Of a DNA stretch of 63,656 bases, positions 31,737-35,781 are shown piece after piece. This DNA is from Rhodospirillaceae bacterium. Lineage in GTDB: Bacteria > Pseudomonadota > Alphaproteobacteria > UBA6615. Below the pieces are notes generated by a model. It made no database searches and was not told where the DNA came from. It worked only from the letters and a program-made list of their open reading frames with translations. The stretch is taken from the NCBI GenBank assembly GCA_002713365.1, contig PASR01000001.1:2405-66060 (forward strand), given 5' to 3'. How positions within the stretch are numbered: position 1 is the first letter of the stretch; every line of letters starts with the position of its first letter. The translations under genes were made by a program, and so were the position numbers.

Positions 31737-32972
31737 TTAATTATTTTTTAAGTACTTCAACAAAGATCGGGCAATGGCACTACTAAGGTTTTTTCGATAA
31801 TTCTGGTTTTGCAACTGCCCTTCCTCTTTTTTATTAGTAAGGTATCCTAATTCAATTAAGGCCGATGGTATATCCGGCGCTTTTAAAACAGCAAAGCCTG
31901 CTGAACGCCAAGGTCTATTTAGTAATTTTACTGAAAATGATGCTTCAGAAATCAAATTATCTCGTGCTAAAATAACCGAAAGCTCATTTGTTTTAGCCTG
32001 CGTAAAATCAATCAAAATATTTTGTACATCATTGCTATATGCACCTAGGTCTAAGCCACCTATAACATCTGACTTATTTTCTTTAGCGGCTAATGCCTGA
32101 GCCTCAGCATCAGATGCATTCTCTGATAATGTATAGACTGAAAAACCATTTGTTTTAGAATTCTTATGACTATTAGCGTGCAAGGATATAAACAAATCAG
32201 CATCAACGCTTCGGGCGAATTTAACTCTATCTCGTAAGGGTATAAATACATCTTTATCACGAGTGAGATACACCTTTATACCACCTTTATTTTCCAACTG
32301 TCGTTTTATTTCTTTCGCGTATGATAAAACAATATCTTTTTCATGCACTCCAGATATCCCAATTGCTCCAGGATCTACACCTCCATGACCAGCATCAATA
32401 ACTATAGTTGGTAGATCAAAGGGTTTTGGCACTGTAGGTAAAGGCTTCTTTGGTACTAATTGGGATTCTTTAATAGTTGGTTTTGGTCTCATTGTTGATA
32501 CAAATTCTTCATGATCAGTAGGTGATAAATCTATTACTAATCTCCAATTATTATTTAAATTAGGCGATAATATAAATTTTCTTGATACCTTCGCCGGTGT
32601 CTTTAAATCAAGTACTAGCCTACTTGATTCAGGTCTAAAAGCTCCATAACGTAAACGATCTATAACCCCTCCTCTAATACTAAACCTTTGATTTGGAAGA
32701 ACAAAATTTACTTTAGGTAAATCTATAACTATCCTATAAGGATTCGCTAAACCAAATACGTACGGACTAATTTTCTGATCCACTTCTATCACTAATCTTG
32801 TTGTAGAGTTTTTTAGACCTATACGTAAATCTTCAACTTTAGCTGACATAGCATCTGAAGTACTAGTTCCAACACTCAATAATAAAAATGTGATAACTAT
32901 TAAGATAGCAAGTTTAGAAAAGATAATTCCCGGTAGGATTCTAAGCCGAGTGCAACAAGATGCGATCATCAT
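31737..32972 (-). CDS. amiC: N-acetylmuramoyl-L-alanine amidase with AMIN domain
   Basis: The 411-residue periplasmic amidase has a signal or anchor segment (residues 17-41), an AMIN domain (about 45-150) that targets the septum, a Pro/Lys-rich linker, and an Amidase_3 domain. Zinc-site residues are in VIDAGHGGVDPGA, the Glu of HEKDIVL, and ISLHANSH, and the catalytic Glu is in PSALIELGYLTN. It cleaves septal peptidoglycan during division. It is divergent from rne and directly precedes PBP1A. AmiC versus AmiB naming cannot be decided by eye. Confidence 0.92.
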   Translation of the reverse strand: MMIASCCTRLRILPGIIFSKLAILIVITFLLLSVGTSTSDAMSAKVEDLRIGLKNSTTRLVIEVDQKISPYVFGLANPYRIVIDLPKVNFVLPNQRFSIRGGVIDRLRYGAFRPESSRLVLDLKTPAKVSRKFILSPNLNNNWRLVIDLSPTDHEEFVSTMRPKPTIKESQLVPKKPLPTVPKPFDLPTIVIDAGHGGVDPGAIGISGVHEKDIVLSYAKEIKRQLENKGGIKVYLTRDKDVFIPLRDRVKFARSVDADLFISLHANSHKNSKTNGFSVYTLSENASDAEAQALAAKENKSDVIGGLDLGAYSNDVQNILIDFTQAKTNELSVILARDNLISEASFSVKLLNRPWRSAGFAVLKAPDIPSALIELGYLTNKKEEGQLQNQNYRKNLSSAIARSLLKYLKNN

Positions 32973-33405
32973 TTTTTAGGTATATCCCAGCATACATGTG
33001 TATCGCAATAAGCTTAATTATATTAGATTACATTAATAGCATTGTCGTAGCCAACGGACATCGCTATCTTATTAATGAAAAATAGCTTAAAAACGTTTTG
33101 TGTAGTGCCTACTTTAAGCGACCTATATATGCTAAAATGCTATAACTGTTATGGCTCTAGCTGAGTAAAACCGGAAAGTCGCCTTGTAATTCTGCACAAT
33201 AGTAATTTAATATTGTTGTAACATCGAAGTTTGCCGAAGAAAATCACACTCTTCTGGCTAGGTGGTAGAAATAATTCTCGCCGTACTGGTGTAAATTTTA
33301 CACCGTTCTACGGCTGGAGAGAATCCACCAAACTTCGCATAGAACGGTAAATACTTTGTTCAGAAATGGCATGAACATAGGTATCAATTCCGTGGAGCGA
33401 GTAAA
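32973..33405. other. 433-base divergent promoter and rne leader region
   Basis: Gene-free stretch between amiC (-) and rne (+). The right half holds a structured RNA leader (33196-33337) described separately. The left 180 bases are AT-rich and should contain both promoters, but I could not identify a confident -35/-10 pair. Confidence 0.6.
33196..33337 (+). promoter_or_regulatory. Structured 5' leader of rne with three-way junction
   Basis: A short hairpin (ACAATA 33196-33201 with TATTGT 33211-33216) precedes a nested fold. P1 is 8 bp (33225-33232 with 33330-33337). It encloses P2, 8 bp with one bulge (33233-33240 with 33250-33258), and a long P3. P3 stacks GGTGG/CCACC (33261-33265, 33325-33329), ATTCTC/GAGAAT (33274-33279, 33319-33324), GCCGTA/TACGGC (33280-33285, 33309-33314) and GGTGTAAA/TTTACACC (33288-33295, 33297-33304). 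The fold ends 68 bases before the rne ATG. By analogy with E. coli rne, such a leader could be the target for RNase E self-cleavage and autoregulation. The fold is read from the sequence; the function is inference. Confidence 0.75.
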
Positions 33406-35781
33406 ATGACGAAAAGAATGCTTATTGATGGTACCCATGCCGAAGAAACGAGAGTTGTAGTTGCAGATGACACTGTACTTCTCGAGTTTGACTTCGAAAC
33501 TACTACCAAAAGTCAGCTTAAGGGTAATATATACCTAGCTAAAGTAACAAGAGTAGAGCCTTCACTCCAGGCAGCATTTATAGATTTTGGAGGAAATCGC
33601 CACGGTTTTTTAGCTTTCAGCGAGATCCATCCAGATTACTATCGCATCCCCGTTGAAGATAAGGAGGCGTTAATAGCTAAATCGGACGTTTCTGATGAAA
33701 TAGATGAAATAGATATAGATGAATTCAAAAATGAAGATATCAATGATAATGATGAAAGTGATGATAATCCGGTAGAGGTGATAGGAGATAATGCAGAAGA
33801 CGATATTGCTGAACTCGGCGATGCTCATCGAAAAAGGCTAAGACAACTAACAAGAATGTATAAAATACAAGAAGTTATTAAAAGACGCCAAATTCTGCTA
33901 GTACAAGTAGTTAAAGAAGAGCGCGGAAATAAAGGTGCAGCCTTAACTACCTATCTATCATTACCAGGCCGTTACTGCGTATTAATGCCAAACACTTCCC
34001 GTGGTGGCGGAATTAGTAGAAAAATATCTAATCCTGCGCATAGAAAACGCATGAAAACTATAATGGCCGACCTAGTAATTCCAGAGGGTATGGCAGTTAT
34101 AATGCGTACCGCCGGGGTAGAAAGAAATAAGGCTGAAGTTCGCAGAGACTATGAATATCTTCGACGTTCATGGGATCAAATTCGTGAACAAACATTGCAG
34201 TCTTCTGCACCTGCAATAATCTATGAAGAAGGGGACCTTATAAAACGCTCCTTAAGAGACGTATACAATCGCGAAATTGAAGAAGTAATTGTTGATGGAG
34301 AACCTGCTTATAAAACAGCGCGGTCACTTATGCGTACTATGATGCCTTCTCATGCTAAACGAGTAAAAAAACATACAGATATTAATACCCCGCTTTTCAA
34401 TCTGCATAAGATCGAATCTCAGCTCGATGAAATATATGATCCAATTGTAAGACTAAGATCTGGTGGATACATTGTTATAAATCCAACTGAAGCTTTAGTA
34501 GCAATAGATGTTAACTCAGGGCGCGCTACACGAGAAAGAAATGTGGAGCAAACAGCCCGAAGAACAAATCTTGAAGCTGCTGATGAAGTTGCCCGTCAAC
34601 TACGTTTACGAGACCTTGCAGGCTTAGTTGTTATTGATTTCATTGACATGGAAGAGAGTCGAAATATAACAGCAGTCGAAAGACGAATGAAAGAGGCTAT
34701 GAAAATAGATAGGGCGCGCATACAGATAGGTCGCATTTCAATATTAGGTTTACTTGAACTATCTCGACAGCGTTTAAGGCCAAGCATCCACGAAGCAAGT
34801 GCACAAATCTGTGTTAGGTGCGGAGGTAGTGGTTATGTAAGATCAACTGAATCGACTGCACTAAGAGTTATACGCGCAATCGAAGAAGAAGGAGCTAAAA
34901 ACCGCTCAAAATCAGTTAATGTAAAAGTTCCAGCTGATGTTGCTTTGTATATATTAAACAACAAAAGAGACATGATAGTTTCTATTGAACAACGACATAA
35001 TTTAAAAGTACTTATAACAGTAGACAGTGAGCTTACACCTCCAGATTATATTATGGATCGGTTAAATTCTAATGCAGCCATAGATGAAATAATATCTGAA
35101 ACTATAGACAGCAGAAACGTTGAAATAACATCTAAAGAAGAAGAGGATCGTACACGTAGACGCAAAACTCCACGACGCATAAAAAATGATGATGAGCAAA
35201 AAGATGCACATGAAACAAATGAAAGCTCAAAAAGTACTGATGAGAGTCCCGAAACCCTAGAACAAGAAAACAAAGATACCCCCCGACCAACAACCAGACG
35301 ACGCGGAAGAAGAGGCGGGAGAAGAAGAAGAAAACCAGATGATATTCCGTCAATTAATAATATTGATACCGCGACAAATGATGAAATAAATACTTCAAAT
35401 GAAACTGCAGAAAATATTGTTAATAGCGATACAGAAAGTACAAAAGATAATATTAGCAACACCCAATCTACAAAAGCGAAAGTTACTTCTAAGGATAAAT
35501 TAGGCGATGGTGATAGTGATTCTAAGCCTAAAAAACGTCGAACTCGCCGTCGTCGAACTAAAAGTTCTGATAATGATTTAAGTAAAACTGTAAAAAAAGT
35601 AAAAACAACAGATTCTTCTTCAGAAAAACTAAAAAATTCTGAAACAGCTAATATAAAAGATCAAATTGCAAATGATAGTAATGATACAGCTAATAAAGAA
35701 AGCCAAGCTGATAAAAAGGTTTCCACAGAAGAAGAGGTGACACGACCACGTCGTTCAGGTTGGTGGAGCCGTACAACATAG
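33406..35781 (+). CDS. rne: Ribonuclease E
   Basis: This is the endoribonuclease central to mRNA decay and rRNA/tRNA processing. The 791-residue protein has an S1 domain (residues 35-200) interrupted by an acidic insert (about 88-140, rich in Asp/Glu), the DNase I-like catalytic core with AIDVNSG and VVIDFIDM supplying metal-binding Asp, and a Zn-link CVRCGGSG near residue 470. The C-terminal 230 residues are low-complexity, alternating Arg-rich blocks (TRRRGRRGGRRRRK) with acidic and Ser/Thr-rich stretches, as expected for an RNA-binding degradosome scaffold. The acidic S1 insert is typical of alphaproteobacteria. The start ATG has GGAG 11 bases upstream. Confidence 0.95.
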   Translation: MTKRMLIDGTHAEETRVVVADDTVLLEFDFETTTKSQLKGNIYLAKVTRVEPSLQAAFIDFGGNRHGFLAFSEIHPDYYRIPVEDKEALIAKSDVSDEIDEIDIDEFKNEDINDNDESDDNPVEVIGDNAEDDIAELGDAHRKRLRQLTRMYKIQEVIKRRQILLVQVVKEERGNKGAALTTYLSLPGRYCVLMPNTSRGGGISRKISNPAHRKRMKTIMADLVIPEGMAVIMRTAGVERNKAEVRRDYEYLRRSWDQIREQTLQSSAPAIIYEEGDLIKRSLRDVYNREIEEVIVDGEPAYKTARSLMRTMMPSHAKRVKKHTDINTPLFNLHKIESQLDEIYDPIVRLRSGGYIVINPTEALVAIDVNSGRATRERNVEQTARRTNLEAADEVARQLRLRDLAGLVVIDFIDMEESRNITAVERRMKEAMKIDRARIQIGRISILGLLELSRQRLRPSIHEASAQICVRCGGSGYVRSTESTALRVIRAIEEEGAKNRSKSVNVKVPADVALYILNNKRDMIVSIEQRHNLKVLITVDSELTPPDYIMDRLNSNAAIDEIISETIDSRNVEITSKEEEDRTRRRKTPRRIKNDDEQKDAHETNESSKSTDESPETLEQENKDTPRPTTRRRGRRGGRRRRKPDDIPSINNIDTATNDEINTSNETAENIVNSDTESTKDNISNTQSTKAKVTSKDKLGDGDSDSKPKKRRTRRRRTKSSDNDLSKTVKKVKTTDSSSEKLKNSETANIKDQIANDSNDTANKESQADKKVSTEEEVTRPRRSGWWSRTT

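Follow-up and report, generated by a model that had tools for sequence, protein, structure and literature searches.

The window, by which we mean the whole 63,656 nt stretch of Rhodospirillaceae DNA that was analysed, carries an rne gene whose product matches PF10150 at 3.4e-96. This gene is separated from an upstream amidase gene by an intergenic stretch of 433 nt (32973–33405). Because the amidase gene is divergent, rne needs its own promoter within these 433 nt. A promoter for rne was sought in the sequence upstream, and none was identified. The segment at 33178–33189 (GTCGCCTTGTAA), located 5′ of the RNA element described below, is almost identical in the leaders L001 to L004 and is possibly a promoter or the start of the leader. 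The features of the locus are as follows.

31737–32972, minus strand: divergent N-acetylmuramoyl-L-alanine amidase gene (gene list and domain search)
33225–33337, plus strand: three-way-junction RNA element in the rne leader (MFE fold and covariance-model match)
33225–33232, plus strand: 5′ strand of P1, paired with 33330–33337 (8 bp); P1 pairs covary
33233–33258, plus strand: P2 hairpin, 8 bp (33233–33240/33250–33258) with bulged U33255; sequence and register differ among families
33261–33329, plus strand: P3 arm, four stacked helices, with an A-rich unpaired stretch (33266–33273) on the 5′ side
33261–33265/33325–33329, 33274–33279/33319–33324, 33280–33285/33309–33314 and 33287–33294/33298–33305, plus strand: P3 helices of 5, 6, 6 and 8 bp (MFE fold)
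33280–33314, plus strand: P3 core, comprising helix 33280–33285/33309–33314, the internal loop C33286 versus UUC33306–33308, the U33287–G33305 pair and the tip
33330–33337, plus strand: 3′ strand of P1 (fold)
33344–33393, plus strand: P4 hairpin, ACGG (33344–33347) with CCGU (33390–33393), adjoining the Shine-Dalgarno sequence; weak in the window
33394–33397, plus strand: probable Shine-Dalgarno sequence GGAG (from sequence), 8 nt before the ATG
33406–35781, plus strand: rne, encoding RNase E (791 aa; PF10150 and PF20833 matches, TIGR00757 above its cut-off)

The MFE fold contains every helix that an initial annotation of this DNA had proposed, namely a P1 of 8 bp, a P2 of 8 bp with one bulge and a P3 of four stacked helices. 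The expectation of unusually extensive structure was borne out as well. Specifically, the segment 33196–33337 folds with an energy of −48.9 kcal/mol, compared with −26.2 ± 3.7 for 200 dinucleotide shuffles (z −6.1), none of which is as stable. In three longer fold contexts the listed junction pairs have mean probabilities of 0.78–0.90, with individual pairs as low as 0.16. The junction ends at 33337, leaving the previously noted gap of 68 nt before the rne ATG at 33406. The extent of the structure had been given as 33196–33337; the junction within it stands, but its true span is 33225–33337, and a hairpin at 33196–33219 falls outside the conserved unit because, as judged by eye, its sequence is not conserved in the leaders of relatives. 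In two related loci (L011 and L017), the fold of a longer leader includes a GUUGC...GCAAC hairpin that occupies bases beside the 5′ strand of P1. The covariance model R1 matches the window at 33220–33340 with 62.2 bits, and a second model, R2, also matches (the window element, as L001, was in the training set).

Distribution of the element among rne leaders

The family that includes the window is termed f1, the order of G074 (Azospirillum-like) is termed f52, a third family is f67 and the order of G209 is f68. A search of 60 genomes for the RNase E protein included 24 from f1, of which 23 show the rne N-terminus and one (G013) was unmatched. The element is present in all 23 of these f1 leaders (20 among the main fetched loci and three fetched separately), and R2 scores each of them at E ≤ 5.2e-5. 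Nineteen of the 23 had been used to train R2, and the held-out members L007, L133, L134 and L135 were found at E values of 9e-5 or better. R1, which was built from 16 sequences, recovered the held-out leaders L009, L018 and L020, plus L021 from another family, and did not find L007, a true f1 member.

Across 385 alphaproteobacterial genomes, R1 yielded seven matches at E ≤ 0.1, all of them 5′ of rne (five in f1, one in f52 and one in f67). The same genomes gave 20 R2 matches at E ≤ 1, under strict filters by which weak members can be lost. All 15 R2 matches at E ≤ 0.05 lie before rne, and they come from f1, f2, f52, f61, f67, f68 and f98. Among the other five, those in the f15 genomes G037 and G169 fall in rne leaders and cover no more than the P3 core, and those in G273, G403 and G039 have no rne within the 3–3.5 kb fetched. 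In the f15 loci L136 and L137, R2 recognizes nothing beyond the hairpin of the P3 core, some 140 nt 5′ of rne, and P1 and P2 are lacking. Six weak extra matches were rejected as carriers, each overlapping a long open frame with no rne within the 3–4 kb fetched; the best extra match away from rne (E 0.0076, in an order scan) lies inside a long open frame.

Matches occur in 30 of the 41 genomes of the f52 order, and 29 of these genomes have rne downstream of the match. The match in G414 (E 0.46) is not beside rne and was discarded as an rne-leader element. Of the remaining 12 leaders in this order, nine contain the core by motif scan, and a degenerate form is visible in the other three by eye only. 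The order appears to include Azospirillum, judging from leaders that are near-identical to that of a named locus, L056 (Azospirillum sp. 412522). In f67, 36 of 39 genomes match, and rne is 3′ of the element in all 30 of these whose loci were inspected. Five of 15 f68 genomes have a match before rne, and one of these (G484) has a second match without rne. Elsewhere in the class the element is present in single or few genomes of further families.

Leader matches among 80 named rne loci amount to four that are clear or moderate and two that are weak. R1 or R2 matches the leaders of L053 (apparently the same contig as f1 L017), L056, L127 (Rhodospirillales bog_933) and L055. L054 (Marivibrio) is matched by R1 at E 0.011 and not by R2, and L059, whose weak R2 match (1295–1433, E 0.66) is spaced from rne as in other carriers, is possibly a divergent member. 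In L057 (Kiloniellaceae), positions 1286–1325, about 215 nt before rne, read GCGAAGC ... GCTTCGCACA, as if P1 alone remained without P2 and P3. No leader match was obtained for the named loci of Rhizobiales, Rhodobacterales, Sphingomonadales and Caulobacterales (at least one of these, L101, begins within rne and contains no leader), and the leaders of Tistrella (L182) and Paracoccus (L183) gave no R2 match.

A scan with a strict-core motif was positive in 76 of 198 leaders (some loci being duplicates), compared with 2 reversed and 2.4 shuffled leaders. Its positives among the named loci are L053 and L056 only, and it missed many true carriers, such as f67 leaders with U in place of C in the loop. 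The element is characteristic of several families and not of Alphaproteobacteria as a class, and most sampled rne leaders are without it. Since most named rne loci do not carry the element, control of RNase E across the class cannot generally depend on it.

Conserved structure and covariation

The architecture of the junction is shared among relatives. P1 is frequently of the form GAAGC/GCUUC or GAGG/CCUC, and the P2 hairpin has no fixed sequence. In order, P3 comprises an outer helix, unpaired bases on its 5′ side, an inner and then a core helix, a small internal loop, UGG/CCG and a variable tip. The core helix is CCGUC/GACGG in many relatives, and its compensated variants include CUGUC/GACAG in L007 and GCGUC/GACGC, CAUC/GAUG and CCCCG/CGGGG in f52. 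The internal loop is almost constant and the helices on both sides of it vary. We ruled out an invariant C/UUC loop, as the complete form is present in only 49 of 85 distinct elements. The base opposite the UU is C in 61 of the 85 and U in 22, and at the third loop position 72 have C and 10 have U. On account of the 61/85 and 49/85 counts, we limit the claim of invariance to the UU and the closing U–G pair, which are kept in all 85 distinct elements (all chosen by model). In three f68 loci (L144, L145 and L214) the element measures about 182 nt rather than about 112 nt owing to an insert in the P3 tip, and the core is unchanged.

Covariation was assessed with our own script in the manner of R-scape, not with R-scape itself, by using a G statistic with average-product correction and a GTR+G simulation along the tree. 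Two structure-fitted alignments were used: A5, with 64 rows (55 distinct after dropping L174, which has no rne beside it), and A6, with 94 rows (85 distinct). Identical sequences were collapsed before the covariation and folding counts. When only annotated pairs were tested, 18 of 39 in A5 covary beyond the tree-simulated null; across all 6105 column pairs of this alignment, the only significant ones are three annotated pairs. In A6, 86.6% of the cells pair, 679 cells are double-changed compared with 255 ± 14 after shuffling, and the score is 0.490 compared with at most 0.093 when the partners are slid. The all-column test of A6 again returned three significant pairs, all annotated, and no unannotated pair.

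The proposal that the rne leader contains a conserved structured RNA is upheld: relatives show compensatory changes, albeit with a single significant pair in each structure-blind alignment. Covarying pairs in P1–P3 had been named as support for the fold; the structure-fitted alignment A6 shows them (20 of 39 annotated pairs significant in our R-scape-like test), and structure-blind MAFFT alignments show far fewer. Whether these contained 63 rows (55 distinct) or 16 family members, one of 39 pairs was significant, in each case a P1 pair. The strong covariation thus rests on structure-fitted alignments. We attribute the weak structure-blind signal to insertions and deletions in P2, P3 and the tip, and it counts against our reading.

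Because the alignments were fitted to the structure and the blind ones are weak, a check of folding that depends little on alignment is important. Unconstrained MFE folds of the distinct elements, which were trimmed to the element ends in a manner that favours P1, form a P1-closed, two-branch junction with the core helix in the second branch in 84 of 85 cases (23/23 in f1, 23/23 in f52, 29/29 in f67, 4/5 in f68 and 5/5 others). When judged by an exact-pair rule, 50 of 55 distinct elements show the junction. The same rule is satisfied by 8 of 31 distinct elements in a later set (f67, f68 and L219), as their P2 departs from the register of the model; the topological test supports these elements.

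These data bear on whether the structure arose by chance or was selected at the level of DNA only. Such an origin would suit the weak structure-blind covariation, but it is hard to reconcile with structure models that recovered held-out relatives, with the junction in nearly all unconstrained folds, with the covariation in the fitted alignments and with matches linked to rne, and we regard it as extremely improbable. Furthermore, covariation of RNA pairs suggests transcription of the element and so speaks against an rne start site downstream of 33337.

Spacing to the start codon and the ribosome-binding site

An rne gene lies downstream of the element in 63 of 64 aligned loci. In these 63 loci the distance from the end of the element to the ATG ranges from 58 to 102 nt (median 67), and all except one fall within 58–85 nt. 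An intrinsic terminator was considered and rejected on the strength of a consensus scan, in which the pattern had a single weak match, within P3, compared with 0.4 ± 0.7 in shuffles. It is very unlikely that the leader gives rise, by processing or as an additional product, to an independent small RNA acting in trans. At about 113 nt, and being compact and stable, the element would suit as the body of such a molecule, but in the checked loci it is always tied to rne at this near-constant spacing, and the consensus scan offers no terminator. Likewise, the main text of a paper on Azospirillum brasilense small RNAs names neither rne nor RNase E (PMC7685610).

The spacer itself commonly holds another hairpin. 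By a simple rule, a P4 hairpin ending just before the ATG is present in 47 of 52 distinct spacers of relatives; the P4 of the window vanishes once more coding sequence enters the fold. The P4 loop (33344–33397 and relatives) is often GUUCGC or GUCGC and resembles the GUUCGAC of P3. Inspection by eye of the Shine-Dalgarno site for pairing with P1 or P3 revealed no conserved pairing. The site is often unpaired among the leader folds, and in many, including that of the window, it is mostly open.

This open site is what would be expected if the element were a passive structure that shields the 5′ part of the rne mRNA or holds the ribosome-binding site open, without feedback. The stability of the fold fits this explanation equally well (median z −3.3 among 55 distinct elements, 43 of which are below −2). 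Mere stability, however, needs no UU and U–G pair retained in every one of the model-selected elements, and we consider a passive role unlikely.

Known rne leaders and a candidate feedback function

The suspicion that the fold belongs to no described family agrees with a scan of Rfam 15, including rne5 and rne-II, in which the element drew no family match, either in the window or in 19 related loci. One sub-threshold match lies elsewhere in L021, off the element. The rne5 model (RF00040) finds nothing at gathering in the window, at E ≤ 10 in 32950–33500, or at E ≤ 0.5 in the 19 related loci, and it detects the E. coli leader, used as a control, at 260 bits. Conversely, the E. coli rne leader is matched by neither R1 nor R2. 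With no match in either direction, kinship with E. coli rne5 was ruled out.

The element and rne5 are nonetheless alike in being structured leaders of the same gene, here 68 nt before the ATG. In the Rfam alignment of rne5, one E. coli arm has an asymmetric internal loop with extra unpaired bases on the 3′ side, as does P3. We take this arm to be hp2. The two differ in scale, rne5 having 333 positions and several hairpins and the element being a three-way junction of 112 positions. The rne-II motif of Pseudomonadales (RF01756) is similarly a conserved, rne-associated RNA structure derived from comparative genomics (PMC2864571). It has 287 positions and does not match the window or the 19 related loci, so that the two are set apart by model search. 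A direct search of the window's genome with RF01756 returned nothing, and control genomes were equally silent.

Leader-based control of rne has precedents in distant bacteria. Autoregulation in E. coli is described as requiring that RNase E bind a hairpin of the rne 5′ UTR (PMC3997798). For Pseudomonas aeruginosa, 5′ rne fragments are reported, one of which is ascribed to cleavage at rne-II (PMC8545117). In Synechocystis, cleavage by RNase E in its own 5′ UTR and feedback have been reported; that cleavage occurs in a U run and premature termination is involved, whereas we found neither a U run nor a terminator in the element (PMC10989929). The open-access literature searched covers rne leader control in E. 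coli and its relatives, Pseudomonas and cyanobacteria and showed none for this element; an earlier description outside that literature is possible. As with RNase E leader elements, we find a conserved RNA secondary structure tied to rne across species, weak structure-blind alignments notwithstanding. The element is best read as a new rne-leader RNA family, analogous to rne5 and rne-II but a member of neither.

Its position, near-exclusive linkage to rne and near-constant spacing, coupled with the analogy to E. coli and Pseudomonas, suggest that this is probably a cis-acting leader element by which RNase E feeds back on rne. RNase E, alone or as the degradosome, would recognize the P3 loop. An excess of the enzyme might then lead to cleavage of the single-stranded linkers near the ribosome-binding site, or to the onset of mRNA decay, and less RNase E would be made. 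When RNase E is short or busy with other substrates, the leader would be spared and rne translated. The output of leader control could therefore be mRNA decay, translation or both.

A reader other than RNase E, either an RNA-binding protein or a small molecule acting in riboswitch-like fashion, might instead set the translation or stability of rne. A near-constant loop within covarying helices on a junction would suit any specific ligand, and a site beside the ribosome-binding site would suit translational control. Yet no Rfam riboswitch model, nor any other, matches the window or the 19 related loci, and at E ≤ 0.05 in the 385 genomes the element precedes rne and no other gene. For the latter reason a reader tied to RNase E itself is the simplest, and we judge a different reader to be rather unlikely.

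The catalytic, 5′-sensor and zinc-link residues are kept in the RNase E of the window. A groove that binds structured RNA has been reported for the E. coli enzyme, and of the eight groove residues listed, three (R3, K433 and R488) are kept in the window protein and five differ (PMC9841416). Because five of eight differ, the E. coli binding mode is not simply transferable to this enzyme. Residues 333–335 of the window protein, in the same groove, are LHK, compared with HYQ in E. coli and RYQ in three relatives.

More tentatively, we propose that feedback by RNase E operates here through an independently evolved sensor, unrelated to rne5 or rne-II and confined to part of the Alphaproteobacteria. 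RNase E might read the UU internal loop presented on the junction and perhaps also the P4 loop of GUUCGC type, so that a single binding event could affect translation as well as decay.

Many bacteria have RNase E as their central RNA-cutting enzyme, and little is said to be known of how its level is controlled in species other than E. coli (PMC10989929). The covariance model marks rne leaders specifically in several families, and the element provides, in the tractable genus Azospirillum, a concrete candidate RNA for rne control. Should RNase E indeed read this element, unrelated RNA folds would have come to serve one and the same feedback loop on more than one occasion, and a comparison of them would reveal what RNase E recognizes in structured RNA.
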